Origin: Comamonas denitrificans
GTDB taxonomy: Bacteria; Pseudomonadota; Gammaproteobacteria; Burkholderiales; Burkholderiaceae_C
Length of the DNA stretch: 64,000 nucleotides
NCBI RefSeq assembly: GCF_017368815.1
Contig: NZ_JAFNME010000014.1
Location: 1-64,000, forward strand
Direction of reading: 5' to 3'
Shown here: positions 2,172 to 53,525 of the stretch, piece by piece
Layout of the letters: each line of letters begins with the position of its first letter
Numbering within the stretch: the first letter of the stretch is position 1
Position numbers and translations under genes: made by a program
Notes under the pieces: generated by a model
Seen by the model: only the letters and a program-made list of their open reading frames with translations
Databases searched by the model: none
What the model was told of the DNA's origin: nothing

Positions 2172-3740
2172 TTAGAGAAGATTGGCCACGTCCATGTAGC
2201 GCAGACGCCATTCTTCAAAGCTGCCAGTATCGGCTTTTTCAATCTCGCGCTGGGCTTGGATGGAGGCGCGGCTGAGCTGGGCGAAGGTTTTTTCCAGTGC
2301 GGCATTGCGCGGCAGGCCCAGCAGGTATTTTTTGCTGGCGTGGGTTTGGGCCAAGCCAAAGGATTGGAAGTTGTTGCTGTATGCGCGGGTGCCGTCCAAA
2401 ACACGCGCAGAGGGCGTGAGGTGGGGAAATTGCACGACATCGTGTGCGGCCAGGAGGGCTTGGCTGTAATCGTCGCTGCCATGGGTGGCATCCAGGGCTT
2501 GGGCGATGGGGTGGCAGGCGGTCAAAATTTCATGGGCCCACTCGGTTAAGAGAACTTCTTTTTTACCGCGCAGGATGCGCAAGCCTGGTTCGCGGCCACG
2601 TTCGGCAGTGCGCAGCTGGTTTTCTTTGAGCGCTTCAATTTCTTCCGGCGTATCCAAGGGGCTATCGGTGAGCAGGCAGTGCAGCAGGAAGATGTCGAGC
2701 ATGCGCATGGTGCTGGCGCTGATGCCGATGGGCTCAAAGGGGTTGATGTCCATCAGCCGCACTTCGACATATTCGACACCGCGTTCGCGCAGCGCGTGCA
2801 AGGGACGTTCGCCCCGGCGCACAGTGCGCTTGGCACGGATGGGGCTGTACAGCTCGTTTTCGATTTGCAGCAAGGTGGTAGCCAGCTGGTTGTAATCGCC
2901 ACCAGGGTTGCGCACGCCCAATTGCTCGTAGGCCGGGTAGGGGCGGGTGAGTGCCTCCTGCAGCGAGTTGGCGTACTCATCCAAATCGTTAAAGCTGGCG
3001 TTGATGCTGGACTGTGCCTCGCTTTGGTAGCCCAGACGGCCCATGCGCAGTGATGTCGCATGCGGCAGGTACAGTGCCTTGCCTTCGGTGCCCAGGGGTT
3101 GTAGGTGGTGTTGGCGCCCTTCCACGAAGCATGGGCACAGGGTGGGCGAGGCACCAAAAAGGTACAGCAGCAAGAATGCTTGGCGGCGGAAATTTCGGAT
3201 TAAGCCTAAATATTCAGCACTGCTGACACCTGGCAGCGACCAGTTGTAATGAATGCCTGAAATGGTCTGCATGCGCCGCCCATAGCGGTGGCCTAAACCC
3301 ATGCGGTAAATGCTTTTAGAGCGGCCGATGTGCGAGTTGCCATAGCGCCCCAGCGGGATGGTCTCATCCGTGGGCAGGGTGCAGGGCATGCTGGCGGCCC
3401 ACATCATTTCCTCGCCTTCAGCGGCCATGCTGCGGTACACGTATTGGTGGATGGCTTGCAGCTCGTCCAGGCAATCTTGCACACCCAGGTGGGCACCGGT
3501 AATCAGCTCTAGTTGCGATTCGCTGTAGTCGGTGGTGATCAGCGGGTGGGTCAGTGCTGAGCCCAGGGCTTGGGGGTGGGGGGTGAGTGCCAGAGCACCA
3601 TTGGGCAAGACCCGCAGGCCTTCTTTTTCAATTCCACGGCGAATTCCTGCCAAGCGTTCAGTTGCCAGAATAGAAAAAGAGGGTGTCTGCGCAATCATGC
3701 CGATAGATGAGAGAGTGGGAAAGAGGGGCGAAGTTACCAC
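2172..3740 (-). CDS. gshA: Glutamate-cysteine ligase
   Basis: Catalyses the first step of glutathione synthesis, ATP-dependent coupling of glutamate and cysteine. The 522-residue product has the proteobacterial type 1 pattern: GIEKEGLRV near the N-terminus, TDYSESQLELIT, a GRYGNSHIG segment and YVEVRLMDINPFEPIGI, all characteristic of E. coli-type GshA (518 residues). The longest frame starts at GTG 3740; an in-frame ATG thirteen codons later (3701) begins MIAQTPSFSIL and could be the true start (509 residues). gshB is not in the window. The upstream side faces the AT-rich, DnaA-box-bearing gap. Confidence 0.92.
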   Translation of the reverse strand: MVTSPLFPTLSSIGMIAQTPSFSILATERLAGIRRGIEKEGLRVLPNGALALTPHPQALGSALTHPLITTDYSESQLELITGAHLGVQDCLDELQAIHQYVYRSMAAEGEEMMWAASMPCTLPTDETIPLGRYGNSHIGRSKSIYRMGLGHRYGRRMQTISGIHYNWSLPGVSSAEYLGLIRNFRRQAFLLLYLFGASPTLCPCFVEGRQHHLQPLGTEGKALYLPHATSLRMGRLGYQSEAQSSINASFNDLDEYANSLQEALTRPYPAYEQLGVRNPGGDYNQLATTLLQIENELYSPIRAKRTVRRGERPLHALRERGVEYVEVRLMDINPFEPIGISASTMRMLDIFLLHCLLTDSPLDTPEEIEALKENQLRTAERGREPGLRILRGKKEVLLTEWAHEILTACHPIAQALDATHGSDDYSQALLAAHDVVQFPHLTPSARVLDGTRAYSNNFQSFGLAQTHASKKYLLGLPRNAALEKTFAQLSRASIQAQREIEKADTGSFEEWRLRYMDVANLL

Positions 3741-4311
3741 GCTCGGGCTAGGCTTGGCCTGCGCAGGGACTAGAAATGGGTGGATTTTTTGCGATTTTTT
3801 TCGGAGGTCGTCCGGCGATAGGTTTATCCCCGGCTGGGCGGCACAATGCTGTGGAAAACCCTGAACAACTGCGCAACAACTGGGGCAAAGGCTTGTTTTG
3901 CAATGAAAAAGAGAAATTGATTAAAAAATAGTCAATTTTAAAAAATACTGCCAACTTGTTCGTCTGAAGCCTGTACAAACTTGTGCATAAATACGCTGAA
4001 GTCTTTTAATTTGCTTATTAAGTTATTGAAATAAAACTAAAAAAACCAATCTGCTGAAAGTTTTGGCAGTGCTGGTGTCGGTTTGCTACTGGGCGGTAGG
4101 GATGTGCGCGTGCGATGGGAGGATCTGTGCTGGTGGCGGGATTATCCCCGTTCACTAGGGATAAACTTGTGGATAACTGTGGTGTGCCATGCACAGGGGC
4201 GCGTCAGCATTGGCTTTTTGGCGTTCAACCCTGGGGTGCGGAAAAAATGGGCAGCTCTGGTGCGTTGGAAAACAGGCACAATGCGCGGTTGTTTTGTTTT
4301 TTCTTGTTGGC
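3741..4311. promoter_or_regulatory. AT-rich intergenic gap with DnaA-box-like sites
   Basis: No convincing gene in this 571-bp gap. One perfect DnaA box, TTATCCACA, lies on the minus strand at 4168-4176. One-mismatch boxes on the minus strand are at 3850-3858 (TTTTCCACA) and 3982-3990 (TTATGCACA). Weaker TTATCCCC-type sites lie at 3824-3832 and 4142-4150 (plus) and 4156-4164 (minus). Between them, about 3895-4060 is strongly AT-rich, and GATTTTTT occurs twice near 3783-3800. This resembles an origin layout, but dnaA is absent and the rRNA operon to the left would run head-on to a fork leaving here. It also must contain the gshA and ferredoxin promoters, which I cannot pinpoint. Confidence 0.5.
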
Positions 4312-4608
4312 ATGGTTGCAGCTTCCTCTCCCGAATTTTTTACGGCCCAACTCGATCCTAGCGGTGAGCAATGCGATGCGTGGGCCAATCAACCACTGTT
4401 GCACTCTTTGGAAGCCGGTCGCATTGATTGGCCCAGTTCTTGCCGCAACGGCACCTGCCGCACCTGCTTGGGGCAGCTAAAAAGTGGTCGTGTGCGGTAT
4501 GAGATTGAATGGCCAGGCTTGACCACCGAAGAAATGGAAGAGGGCTGTGTTTTGCCCTGTGTGGCTTATCCCGAGAGCGATGTTGTCTTGCAAGACCCGG
4601 AAAATTAA
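4312..4608 (+). CDS. Small 2Fe-2S ferredoxin
   Basis: A 98-residue plant-type ferredoxin, an electron carrier with a [2Fe-2S] cluster. Ligand cysteines fit the pattern C44-x4-C49-x2-C52 (CRNGTCRTC) with the distant C83 in LPCVAYP. The sequence before C44 (LEAGRIDWPSSC) is the usual loop preceding the cluster. I start at ATG 4312; the frame stays open upstream to 4189, but that extension is not ferredoxin-like and falls in the regulatory gap. It is a stand-alone domain with no reductase fused or adjacent, so its redox partner cannot be inferred. Confidence 0.85.
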   Translation: MVAASSPEFFTAQLDPSGEQCDAWANQPLLHSLEAGRIDWPSSCRNGTCRTCLGQLKSGRVRYEIEWPGLTTEEMEEGCVLPCVAYPESDVVLQDPEN

Positions 4609-4696
4609 GGTGCTGCGCTGGGCCAGGGCTGCAAGCTCAGGTGGGAGCCATTAAAATCTGCAGCACTTGTGTTGTAAGTTATTTGCAAAATTCTCA

Positions 4697-50311: not shown

Positions 50312-50695
50312 TTAAACAACGAACCGGGCCAGCAAGGCGCTGCCCCAGGTCAGACTGAGCAGCACCAAGCTAACCAAGACGGCGGCGCTGCCCAGGTCTT
50401 TGGCTTTTTTGGACAGCGGGTGCAGCTCTGGGCCAATGCGGTCAATGGCCGCTTCGATGCCGCTATTGAGCAGCTCCACTATCAAAACCAGGAGCACACT
50501 GCCAGCCAGCAGCATGCGTTCTACCCAGTTTTGGCCTAAGAGAAAAGCGGCGGGCAGCAAGAGGATGGACAGCTGCACCTCTAGGCGAAAAGCCTTTTCT
50601 TGCCAGCCAGCGTGCAAGCCTTGCAAAGAATAGCCCGTGGCATGCCACAGGCGCGAGAGGCCTTGGCGGGCTTTGTGTGGGTGGGGGGCCGTCAT
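50312..50695 (-). CDS. dgkA: Diacylglycerol kinase
   Basis: A small integral-membrane kinase of 127 residues that recycles diacylglycerol to phosphatidic acid. Three hydrophobic helices; the signature VELLNSGIEAAIDRIG and the following HPLSKKAKDLGSAAVL are the active-site region. The FRLEVQLSILLLP segment is also typical. Start ATG 50695, overlapping the end of the RDD gene by four bases, so it is co-translated. Confidence 0.94.
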   Translation of the reverse strand: MTAPHPHKARQGLSRLWHATGYSLQGLHAGWQEKAFRLEVQLSILLLPAAFLLGQNWVERMLLAGSVLLVLIVELLNSGIEAAIDRIGPELHPLSKKAKDLGSAAVLVSLVLLSLTWGSALLARFVV

Positions 50696-51186
50696 GGGGC
50701 TTGCAGCAGTTGGGTTTTGGCCCAGGCATCGTGCCAAAACTGGCCTTGGGGGTGCAGGCGGCTGGCCAGCATCCACAGCACCACCCACACGCCCAGCACG
50801 ATGGACAAATGCGTCACCGCCAAAGGCCAGGGCGTGAGCTGCAGCAGCAGCGGCAGCCCCCAAATCCAGCTAAAAGCATAGCGGGTAAGGGCCCGGATGC
50901 GGGTGAGCCGGTAGCCTTGGGCATCGACGATGGTGATGCGCCAAGTCTTCATCGGCAGGGTTTGGCCACGTTGCCAAAAATAAACGAAGTAAGCGCCCCA
51001 CAGCGTCAAGGTGCTGGCTTGTAGCAGGGCTGGGTGGTTCAGGGCGGGCAGCACTATAGCTAGCGCACTTTGCAGCAGCACCGCCACCATCATCAAAGCA
51101 AACAGCACCAAGCCTTCATAGAGCCAGCAGGCCATGCGCCGGGCCAGACTGGCAGGAACCAAGGTGGGGGTGGGGGGAGTGGCCAT
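50692..51186 (-). CDS. RDD family membrane protein
   Basis: A 164-residue RDD protein. The family-defining R and D residues lie in LARRMACWLYEGLVLFALM and in QFWHDAWAKTQLL near the end; LPMKTWRITIVDAQG is the internal signature. About four membrane helices. Function unproven; some members act as ion exchangers. Terminal overlap with dgkA and a 27-bp gap from the DUF3106 gene place it in the sigma-factor operon. Confidence 0.88.
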   Translation of the reverse strand: MATPPTPTLVPASLARRMACWLYEGLVLFALMMVAVLLQSALAIVLPALNHPALLQASTLTLWGAYFVYFWQRGQTLPMKTWRITIVDAQGYRLTRIRALTRYAFSWIWGLPLLLQLTPWPLAVTHLSIVLGVWVVLWMLASRLHPQGQFWHDAWAKTQLLQAP

Positions 51187-51213
51187 GCCGCGCAAACGCT
51201 TCCTTTGGAAAAA

Positions 51214-52101
51214 TCAAGGTTGCGAGTGTAGGGCCTCTGGCGCGGGGGCGGGCGCTGCCGGGGTGGCCGGTGCTGGCAAGGCCGATAGCGGGGGCAGCTC
51301 CATGGTGTACATGGGCTGGGGAACTTCGACTGGAGCGGGGGCCGCTTCGACCAGCGGGGGCAATGGGGTGGCCTGCACGGGTTTGGAGGTGGTGACGGCG
51401 GAGGTGCTGGCACCAGAGGACGGGCTGGGCGGCGTTGGCAGAGGCGCGGTTTGGGCTGGCGGCAGCGGGGCTGGCGCTGGGGTGGGGGGCACAAACGGTT
51501 TGGGGCGGTTGAGCTTGCGGCGTGTGTTTTTGGCTTTGCGCTTTTGTTCTGCTTTCAGGCCTTCGGCCTTGAGGCGCTCTTTTTCAGCCGCCGTGAGGGC
51601 CTGGTATTCCTGCCATTTGAGCAGCAAATCGTCCGGGGTCAGGCGTTTGGCATTTTCAAAATTAAGCCGTGCCTGGTTGCGTTGTTGAGCGCTCAAACTG
51701 GCCCAGGAGAGCATGCGCTCGTGCAGCTTGGCCTGCTCTTTTTCGCTCATGCTGGGGTAGCGGTCGGCCAGCACCAGCCAGCGGCGCTTGGTCAGCGCAC
51801 CCATGGCAGGCCATTGCAGGTGCAAAGGGTCGAGAATTTGACGCTGCGCAGCAGTGATGTCTTGCCACTCGGGCCCGGCGCTGCTCAGGCGCAGCCGGTT
51901 GGGTGTATCGGTGGTGAGGCGAGGGCTGTTTTGGTCTTCATGCACCGCCAAGGCGGGGGGCACGGCGCTGGGGGCCATGGCCATATAGGGAATCAACCAC
52001 GCACCGATACCGGCCAGCACTGCCAGCACCGCCCCAGCAAAAACCAGGGGCAGGTGTGCAGTCTTTTTCTTGCAAGGCAAAGAGGAGGTAAGTGGCTGCA
52101 T
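51214..52101 (-). CDS. DUF3106 domain-containing membrane-anchored protein
   Basis: A 295-residue protein: a short cytoplasmic part, one membrane helix at about 18-40 (LPLVFAGAVLAVLAGIGAWL), then a helical periplasmic DUF3106 domain (about 65-175) with repeated L/I-T/S-x2-Q/D motifs (DITAAQRQIL, SLSAQQRNQA, RLTPDDLLLK), followed by a basic patch and about 90 residues of P/A/T-rich low complexity. The repeated motif recalls the LTxxQ helices of CpxP/Spy, but homology is not claimed. Biological role unknown. Start ATG 52101. Confidence 0.83.
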   Translation of the reverse strand: MQPLTSSLPCKKKTAHLPLVFAGAVLAVLAGIGAWLIPYMAMAPSAVPPALAVHEDQNSPRLTTDTPNRLRLSSAGPEWQDITAAQRQILDPLHLQWPAMGALTKRRWLVLADRYPSMSEKEQAKLHERMLSWASLSAQQRNQARLNFENAKRLTPDDLLLKWQEYQALTAAEKERLKAEGLKAEQKRKAKNTRRKLNRPKPFVPPTPAPAPLPPAQTAPLPTPPSPSSGASTSAVTTSKPVQATPLPPLVEAAPAPVEVPQPMYTMELPPLSALPAPATPAAPAPAPEALHSQP

Positions 52102-52163
52102 GCCGTGAAGAGGGGCCTTGTGCAATGGCAGGGGGTGAATCTGAGGCGTTAAGAGCAGGCCGG

Positions 52164-52634
52164 TTAAGGCGTGGTTTTTTGACTGGTTTCCAAGAAGTGC
52201 AAGAAGCCTGGGTCTGTGTAGGCATCCGGCGGCAAGGCACTGGTGAGCAGCTCGGCATCGACATTGGCCAAGCCAACGGTGGCGCGGCTGTCTTCTTGGA
52301 TGCCGATGGTGATCACGCCAATGGCCAGGATGAGCAGTGGCAAAAAGGTGAGCGCTTTGCGAATCCAGGATGCGGTGTTGTCGGGTAAATGGCCACCAAC
52401 ACCAGCCGTTTGCAACTGCGGGGCGCTCGCATATTGACGCAAGGGCGCTGCGCCGCGTTTGCGCTGGGCCACCGCCTGCTCGCGGGCGGCGCGCAGGCGT
52501 TCGGTGACAACATAGGGCAGCTCCTCTTGCGACTGGTTCAGGTGCGCTACCAAAGAGCGGGCAAAGCGCTCTTGGGCGTGTTCATCCAGCGGTGTGAAGT
52601 GTTGGGGCTGAAGGGGCGTGGTCGAGGGGGTCAT
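52164..52634 (-). CDS. DUF3619 protein, candidate anti-sigma factor
   Basis: A 156-residue protein with about 90 cytoplasmic residues, one membrane helix at about 94-112 (ALTFLPLLILAIGVITIGI) and a short periplasmic end. The N-terminal part LDEHAQERFARSLVAHLNQS is helical. Sigma factor and this gene overlap by four bases (ATGA), the usual arrangement of an ECF sigma factor with its membrane anti-sigma factor. The role as anti-sigma factor is inferred from topology and position only. Confidence 0.83.
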   Translation of the reverse strand: MTPSTTPLQPQHFTPLDEHAQERFARSLVAHLNQSQEELPYVVTERLRAAREQAVAQRKRGAAPLRQYASAPQLQTAGVGGHLPDNTASWIRKALTFLPLLILAIGVITIGIQEDSRATVGLANVDAELLTSALPPDAYTDPGFLHFLETSQKTTP

Positions 52635-53203
52635 AGTTCTATTCCTTGGGCTTTGAGGGCTTTGCTCAATGTTTGCACAGCCCGAAAGCAATGGGTCTTG
52701 ACGCTGCCTTCCGAGCAGCCCATGGCGGCAGCGGTTTCGGCAACGTCAAGCTCCTCCCAGTAACGCAAAAGAAAGGCTTCGCGTTGACGTGCAGGAAGCA
52801 TTTGGATTTCTTTTTCAATACTTTGCAACAACTGTTTGCGCTCTGTCAGCGTCTCGGCACTGCTTTCAACGTACTCGGGGTTGCTGCTGGCGTAGGTTTG
52901 CAGCCAGTCAAAGTCATCGCCATCGGCGTTGATGGCATGCTCCAGAGCCGATATGTTGGTAAAGAGCGCATTGCGTGTTTTTTGTCGCCGAAACCAGTCC
53001 AAGGTGCTGTTGGCCAGGATGCGGTGAAACAGCATGGGCAGCTCCTCGGGCGGTTTATCCCCGTAGTGGTGGCTGAGTTTGAGCATGCTGTCTTGGACGA
53101 TGTCCAGCGCGGCCTCCTCATCACGCACCTGATAAACCGTGCGTTTGAAAGCGCGTTTGTCCACGCTTTGGAGGAAGGAGTTGAGCTCTTGTGCGGTGGC
53201 CAA
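52631..53203 (-). CDS. ECF-type RNA polymerase sigma factor
   Basis: A sigma-70 family factor of 190 residues with region 2 (AALDIVQDSMLKLSHHYGD, LFHRILANSTLDWFRRQ) and region 4 (LPARQREAFLLRYWEELD, VAETAAAMGCSEGSVKTHCF). No ATG exists upstream of region 2. I take TTG 53203, giving MATAQELNSFLQSV, which fits the family N-terminus; TTG 53230 would add nine residues. Neither has a good RBS. It heads a four- to five-gene minus-strand operon: sigma, DUF3619, DUF3106, RDD, dgkA. Confidence 0.87.
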   Translation of the reverse strand: MATAQELNSFLQSVDKRAFKRTVYQVRDEEAALDIVQDSMLKLSHHYGDKPPEELPMLFHRILANSTLDWFRRQKTRNALFTNISALEHAINADGDDFDWLQTYASSNPEYVESSAETLTERKQLLQSIEKEIQMLPARQREAFLLRYWEELDVAETAAAMGCSEGSVKTHCFRAVQTLSKALKAQGIEL

Positions 53204-53304
53204 GGGGTGGCAAAGGAGAATGGACGACAAGTGTAGCGATCGCGGTAACGCTGTCGCCTACAGGAAAAGCAGGATTATCGCATTGCGTGGGCTGTGGCAG
53301 AAAA

Positions 53305-53370
53305 ATGCTCGGTGCGGCGATTGTTGCAGTGCCATAATAAATTCTTGCAGTGCAACATATCGCGCAGTGC
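53305..53370 (+). promoter_or_regulatory. Candidate short leader ORF and GCAGTGC direct repeats upstream of ilvI
   Basis: An 11-codon frame at 53305-53337 would encode MLGAAIVAVP, with leucine, isoleucine and two valines. GCAGTGC recurs at 53326, 53347 and 53364, the second as the palindrome TTGCAGTGCAA. No terminator hairpin follows, so a leader-peptide attenuator is not demonstrated; the repeats could be operator half-sites. Confidence 0.25.
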
Positions 53371-53525
53371 AAAAAAGGCAAACGGGTCACCGTTCGGCGT
53401 TCGTAGCTATTGGTAGCAGCGCCTATGGCGATGGCACAAAGTCCCAAGCCGGCCTCAAAAGGGCTGCGTGCAAGGGGCACCGAAGGTTTTTCGTTAGAGA
53501 AATTCACAAAGGTTGAATCACACAT

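Follow-up and report, generated by a model that had tools for sequence, protein, structure and literature searches.

An ECF sigma factor gene paired with DUF3619 and DUF3106: a candidate three-part transmembrane switch

In a stretch of Comamonas denitrificans DNA, a gene for an ECF sigma factor is followed on the same strand by genes for two families of unknown function, DUF3619 and DUF3106, and then by genes for an RDD membrane protein and DgkA. The locus raises the question of which of these genes belong together and what they could do jointly. The first-pass annotation of the window (the whole stretch analysed, 64,000 nucleotides) had read all five as one undescribed envelope-stress unit. 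Its description of five minus-strand genes in the order sigma, DUF3619, DUF3106, RDD and DgkA, from 53203 to 50312, is borne out by the gene calls and profile matches, including the overlaps: the DUF3619 start overlaps the sigma stop by four bases as ATGA, and the co-directional RDD and DgkA genes share a four-base overlap as well. The features of the locus are as follows.

53526: ilvB, divergent from the sigma operon
52631..53203, minus strand: sigma gene, 190 amino acids, TTG start, of the PRK09047 (NF006550) ECF family
52164..52634, minus strand: DUF3619 gene, 156 amino acids, ATG at 52634, PF12279 at 112.4 bits; probable single-pass anti-sigma factor
52449..52583, minus strand: DUF3619 residues 18-62, two predicted helices with a conserved L...RL..AR..A motif; candidate sigma-binding part
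52167..52298, minus strand: DUF3619 residues 113-156, acidic tail, presumably periplasmic, with a conserved D..LL...P..A..D.GF..(W/F)L end
51214..52101, minus strand: DUF3106 gene, ATG at 52101 and TTG at 52125, PF11304 at 83.2 bits; the protein has an N-terminal hydrophobic segment, a helical-repeat domain and a P/A-rich tail
51511..51867, minus strand: DUF3106 18-residue helical repeats, with predicted helices starting at residues 84, 102, 120, 138, 156 and 171
50692..51186, minus strand: RDD membrane protein gene, ATG at 51186, PF06271 at 41.9 bits
50312..50695, minus strand: DgkA gene, PF01219 at 105.1 bits
50299-49673, minus strand: LOG-type gene (TIGR00730), next after dgkA

The sigma protein scores 255.6 bits against NF006550/PRK09047 (cut-off 173) and is also over the cut-off of TIGR02937. 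Its region 4 exceeds the Pfam cut-off and its region 2 is recognised below it, at 19.2 of 24 bits; with regions 2 and 4 only and a short linker, the protein falls among the ECF (group 4) sigma factors, and ECF sigma factors are also its best relatives in a sequence search of solved structures. The best 80 sigma relatives in named genomes, a set from which the window's own record may be left out, are mostly labelled Comamonadaceae, the top one coming from an uncultured Comamonas (87% identity). Variovorax paradoxus carries the locus as well.

The constancy of the neighbours was examined in a sample of 200 genomes from the order Burkholderiales. The sigma family is found over the cut-off in 148 of them, about three quarters; DUF3619 is matched in 146 (145 above the cut-off) and DUF3106 in 147, with the positions of 146 of the latter listed and used in the presence counts. 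In 144 of the 146 places, DUF3619 lies directly downstream of the sigma gene. One exception (G114) has a contig ending inside the sigma gene, and a sigma fragment precedes DUF3619 on a second contig; the other (G123) is the 146th match, below the cut-off, and by eye its gene looks like what we take to be yceD, beside plsX. Three sigma-positive genomes (G001, G004, G096) have no match to the Pfam DUF3619 model, and in these a broader profile finds a DUF3619-like gene behind the sigma gene. All 148 sigma-positive genomes then carry an adjoining DUF3619-like gene, one of them (G114) across the contig break. It should be mentioned that frequent occurrence of DUF3619 away from a sigma factor had been named beforehand as evidence that would speak against the pairing; among the 145 order genomes with DUF3619 over the cut-off, none is without the sigma gene, and the neighbourhood conservation anticipated for the Burkholderiales is plainly there.

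The two genes are also coupled. At 97 of the 121 order loci, the window included, an in-frame start codon is located exactly four bases inside the sigma stop, the start nearest the overlap point being taken where several were possible. Like anti-sigma genes, the DUF3619 gene thus both adjoins a sigma gene and is coupled to it. Of the 148 sigma-positive genomes, 145 also carry DUF3106. By listed places, the 200 genomes divide into 143 with all three genes, 50 with none and 7 with part of the set; one genome counted among the 50 (G043) also matches DUF3106 (E 6.8e-5), at a position that the list does not give. Around the best 80 named relatives, DUF3619 follows the sigma gene at 80/80 loci and DUF3106 is found at 77/80, the three misses being short contig ends. 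With the four-base overlap this frequent and the triad all-or-none in most genomes, the gene arrangement is far beyond chance: sigma and DUF3619 genes form a coupled pair that is close to obligate, usually joined by DUF3106 as the third member.

A few loci depart from the common pattern. At two of them (L066 in G063 and L254 in G183), the sigma gene and DUF3619 are present and DUF3106 is not detectable, which makes them a natural test of the need for DUF3106. At positions 2863-4609 of a third (L353 in G134), DUF3106 and an RDD-like gene, recognised by eye, lie beside ilv genes and no sigma gene was found; here the sigma factor has apparently been lost naturally.

The first-pass annotation had framed conservation in terms of the Burkholderiales. 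The arrangement holds there, and this scope proved too narrow. In a class sample of 229 Gammaproteobacteria genomes, which includes the genome of the window and two relatives from its family, DUF3106 is matched in 65 and DUF3619 in 20, the latter mostly by weak, N-terminal matches; in a phylum sample, DUF3106 is matched in 15/200 genomes, 11 of them of the same class. Beyond the window's genus there are 63 DUF3106 loci, of which we examined 40; the 23 omitted include all those under 72 bits. The order sigma, DUF3619-like, DUF3106 is found at 39 of these 40 loci outside the Burkholderiales; the exception (L162 in G290) has DUF3106 with neither a PRK09047-type sigma gene nor DUF3619 in the stretch examined. 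These loci were picked by DUF3106, the sigma family having been searched independently within the Burkholderiales alone. The middle gene was extracted by rule at 37 loci and by profile at two more (L275, L276); a narrower first DUF3619 profile had found it at 18/20 of the first loci. The middle proteins are homologous to DUF3619 over most of their length (hhalign 98.5%, E 1.5e-15, 113 columns; 96.9%, E 1.4e-10 in a second profile comparison), and PF12279 itself matches 29 of the 37 at E values up to 0.01.

What, then, could DUF3619 do beside the sigma factor? From its N-terminus onward, the protein consists of a helical part, a linker that varies between members, a single hydrophobic segment and, at the end, an acidic tail of ~44 residues. 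Its conserved N-terminal motif reads L.....L......RL..AR..A in the longer form, and the aromatic end motif of the tail is recognised by a simple pattern in 205 of 241 DUF3619 relatives. The predicted model, of modest confidence (pLDDT 71, pTM 0.26), has helices at residues 18-38 and 41-62 and a long helix from residue 89. The hydrophobic segment is above threshold in 204 of the 241 relatives and a second segment in only 2, and the charge flanking the segment is more positive on the N-terminal side in 230, which by the charge rule predicts a cytoplasmic N-terminus. Judged by hydropathy and charge alone, DUF3619 is a protein with one transmembrane helix and a cytoplasmic N-terminus.

Comparison with known anti-sigma factors adds little to this picture. 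None of the Pfam anti-sigma families is matched by the 37 middle relatives or by the DUF3619 of the window. The curated anti-sigma model NF052375 gives weak matches in 3/37 middle relatives (best E 3.5e-6) and in 3 of 73 DUF3619 proteins (best 0.0028), and the RseA model matches 1/73 weakly (E 0.0066), which does not exceed what unrelated models give. Models for other functions, or for none that is known, do about as well: the CU044_5270 family model matches 7/37 relatives (best 7.9e-5), a LAXTG small protein model 4/73 DUF3619 proteins (best 0.0035) and a crotonyl-CoA reductase model 1/73 (0.007). The matches to these models that were viewed individually reach 14-15 bits against a cut-off of 100. 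Among solved structures, a sequence search returned no DUF3619 match with E <0.1, and Foldseek against the PDB gave a best E of 5.2 with nothing under 1, from which no new fold is claimed. VIA-align against 5 chains gave Z scores of at most 3.3, and none of the solved anti-sigma chains was matched by the DUF3619 sequence or by its modest-confidence model. Because the anti-sigma matches are weak and unrelated models equal them, we base the anti-sigma role on gene order and topology.

Coevolution was examined by direct coupling analysis of 241 trios (effective number ~200). The scores between the sigma factor and DUF3619 are not concentrated in the cytoplasmic part of DUF3619 relative to its membrane and tail part, and true pairs outscore near-neighbour swaps in each of the five DUF3619 segments, the membrane and tail segments included. 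Since the excess is found in every segment, no interface can be read from it. Considering the gene order and topology together, DUF3619 is probably the anti-sigma factor. The earlier proposal that DUF3619 holds the sigma factor gains from the near-obligate coupled pairing and the anti-sigma-like topology; the holding itself is what we infer from them.

DUF3106 is characterised by its repeats. The autocorrelation of its profile is 0.59 at a spacing of 18 residues and 0.53 at 36 (99th percentile of permutations, 0.235), and the block pLDDT over the repeat helices is 87-97 in the predicted model. By a crude rule, 79 of 120 DUF3106 proteins have an apparent cleavable signal peptide; 35 of the 120, with automatically chosen starts, have no hydrophobic N-terminal segment. 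The first-pass annotation had called DUF3106 membrane-anchored, with a P/A-rich tail. The hydrophobic N-terminal segment is present in the window protein and could be either a signal or a membrane anchor, so that the anchoring is uncertain when so many relatives carry an apparent signal peptide. The tail is likewise real in the window (P+A 0.48 in the last 60 residues) and is not a family trait (median 0.25). The idea of a periplasmic partner fares better, fitting both the conservation with the pair and the apparent export signal, and DUF3106 is probably such a partner, as far as sequence features indicate. A sequence search of solved structures gave no DUF3106 match with E <0.1; Foldseek against the PDB gave a best E of 1.4 with nothing under 1, again no basis for claiming a new fold, and VIA-align against 61 chains gave Z scores of at most 4.0.

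Homology of DUF3106 to CpxP, Spy and CnrX was considered and is not claimed, the signal (45% over 33 columns) exceeding the negative controls but being too weak. The DUF3106 profile reaches 45% and 11% against PF07813 and PF13801, respectively; in the controls, LTXXQ against Metal_resist reaches 99.7%, column shuffles at most 0.4% and the sigma profile 3.7%. LTXXQ is weakly matched by 2/41 DUF3106 members (best E 0.0016).

Whether DUF3106 regulates DUF3619 is, in our estimate, evenly poised. An alternative account leaves the sigma factor and DUF3619 as a sigma/anti-sigma pair and makes DUF3106 a co-transcribed target or effector, structural or chaperone-like, in place of a sensor. The repeat architecture of DUF3106 favours this account, as do the genomes in which DUF3106 is absent while the pair stays (G004, G063, G183) or in which it stays without the sigma gene in the stretches examined (G134, G290). 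However, retention in nearly every sigma-positive order genome suits a dedicated partner, and we consider the effector account rather unlikely. The loci outside the order were chosen by DUF3106, and for this reason their 39/40 is not counted against it. With DUF3106 as the periplasmic partner, its absence from three sigma-positive genomes implies that the switch may work without it.

The region upstream of the sigma gene bears on how the pair would be supplied. The extended -10 pattern TGnTAnnAT is found in 62 of 119 order upstream regions in the sense direction and in 10 in the antisense direction (shuffles 3.0, maximum 6). Two simple forms of a canonical ECF promoter before the sigma gene are found in 1 and 2 of the 119 regions (shuffles 0.5 and 4.1). 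This is a hint from the upstream sequences, not proof, that transcription of the operon depends on a sigma factor other than the one it encodes. None of the 79 upstream regions taken from near relatives of the window contains TGnTAnnAT; there another element is a candidate:

53274..53282, minus strand: TGCGATAAT, candidate extended -10 of the window's near relatives, by consensus match only

In the 79 regions, TGCGATAAT occurs 36 times sense and 34 times antisense, and because it is about as frequent antisense, the window's own promoter is less clear.

Other upstream elements are noted here. GGTCAAG, the word found most often upstream in the order set, was rejected as an element of the sigma operon, its reverse strand being a TTGACC -35 toward the divergent ilvB; in L048, L053 and L065, a -10-like element follows the TTGACC by ~17 bases on that strand, facing ilvB (by eye). 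Three tandem GCACTGC(AA)-type motifs, the third recognised by eye, lie at 53324-53371 between the sigma gene and ilvB. The exact 11-mer TTGCACTGCAA has four copies in the whole genome, and the other three share, by eye, no function that would link it to another regulon.

The promoter result also touches a second account, in which the sigma factor is always active and DUF3619, instead of inhibiting it, tethers it to the membrane or acts as its positive partner. The lack of an ECF-type autoregulatory promoter in the 119 order regions and of any Pfam anti-sigma family match would agree with it, contact with the sigma factor and inhibition being inferred steps. However, the gene order, the overlap and the topology agree with an ordinary inhibitor, and matches to anti-sigma models exist, weak as they are; we regard a tether as quite improbable and keep DUF3619 as the putative inhibitor.

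The remaining neighbours show how far the unit extends. The neighbour counts are lower bounds, as some loci stop at contig ends. RDD is a neighbour at no fewer than 100/121 order loci and 77/80 of the best 80 near relatives, and ilvB is divergent upstream at 84/121 and 77/80, respectively. DgkA adjoins at 3/121 order loci and 61/80 of the best 80 near relatives. None of RDD, DgkA and ilvB is a neighbour at 20 other gammaproteobacterial loci. The first reading of the five genes as a single functional envelope unit with RDD and DgkA as outputs, for which the shared direction, the RDD/DgkA overlap and the wide occurrence of RDD speak, is very unlikely given the rarity of DgkA in the order and the absence of both genes from those 20 loci. 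DgkA is an incidental neighbour, mainly in the window's family Comamonadaceae, and lies outside the conserved module, which leaves its proposed role as an output unsupported. RDD may be accessory within the order, as an optional member.

Taken together, we lean toward a three-part transmembrane switch, made of the coupled pair with DUF3619 as inhibitor, DUF3106 as partner and a sigma70-type supply. DUF3619 would span the inner membrane with a cytoplasmic N-terminus, and its two N-terminal helices (about residues 18-62) would keep the sigma factor from acting, much as the class II factor CnrY does. DUF3106, as an exported protein of 18-residue helical repeats, would read the short acidic periplasmic tail of DUF3619, which in most members has an aromatic F..WL-like end. 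A periplasmic change would then alter the contact between DUF3106 and the tail, and the sigma factor would be freed by a conformational change or by proteolysis. Basal expression would come from an ordinary sigma70-type promoter and not from a canonical ECF autoregulatory one, and for this reason the sigma/DUF3619 pair would be kept in stock. Envelope damage as the stimulus is a tentative suggestion, and 'envelope stress' as a label for the module is a guess. It is conceivable, at about the same tentative level, that a triad of this kind extends across the Gammaproteobacteria, with a two-helix anti-sigma family, made up of DUF3619 and diverged relatives in the class, whose acidic aromatic tail is read by DUF3106 as a new periplasmic helical-repeat sensor, the components being stocked through sigma70 transcription in place of ECF autoregulation.

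If the switch is real, DUF3619 and DUF3106, two families of unknown function, gain a joint and directly testable role, and the anti-sigma family reaches beyond the good coverage of its Pfam model. An ECF pathway would then be kept by about three quarters of the sampled Burkholderiales (148/200) and by many other Gammaproteobacteria. The literature search gave nothing for DUF3619, DUF3106, PF12279, PF11304 or PRK09047, the 2021 ECF re-classification lying outside its reach, and the signal and regulon of this pathway appear in none of the literature searched. No link to the triad was obtained for SbrI/SbrR of Pseudomonas aeruginosa, and the accessible text of PMC9045368 and PMC8103513 has nothing on it. 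The triad is not described as a system in the literature searched. DUF3106 is its more interesting member.

Among characterised sigma factors, ours is probably an ortholog of EcfD (BCAL2360) of Burkholderia cenocepacia, going only by a published primer. The reverse primer published for ecfD translates to DPLETL, which is the family's conserved linker, and it lies close to the corresponding position in the gene; in the 121 loci it is found in two sigma genes only (L082, L083), with two mismatches each. The forward primer is found in no sigma gene of the 121 loci; its single match, in L028, lies elsewhere and looks like chance. In 2007 EcfD was described as having no known function (PMC2194791), and ecfD was reported to be over 6 times up in Caenorhabditis elegans infection, which the authors link to iron limitation (PMC10175445). 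This probable ortholog is thus induced in a host, in the sole organism for which expression was found in the literature (accessible text of PMC10175445). The accessible text of these two papers (PMC2194791, PMC10175445) mentions neither an anti-sigma factor nor a DUF3106 partner.

With CpxP and Spy (LTXXQ), DUF3106 shares short helices with L(S/T)PEQ-like starts; unlike them, it has 18-residue repeats, and its profile similarity is far below that between LTXXQ and Metal_resist. In the RpoE-RseA-RseB system, a sigma factor, a single-pass anti-sigma factor and a periplasmic partner are encoded in one operon, and the triad similarly brings together a sigma factor, a single-pass putative anti-sigma factor and a candidate periplasmic partner, although no RseA or RseB Pfam model is matched by the window's two DUF proteins. 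In the Cnr system of Cupriavidus metallidurans, CnrY has a single-pass topology and CnrX acts as the periplasmic partner, with a gene order that differs from that of sigma, DUF3619 and DUF3106. CnrY, a class II anti-sigma factor, wraps CnrH with two helices (accessible text of PMC7406223). Unlike Cnr, the triad has a DUF3106 not clearly homologous to LTXXQ or Metal_resist proteins, no metal-resistance genes among the neighbours seen, and a sigma factor only distantly related to CnrH (E 4e-4). Like CnrH-CnrY-CnrX, it would combine an ECF sigma factor, an anti-sigma factor with a two-helix cytoplasmic part and a helical partner in the periplasm.
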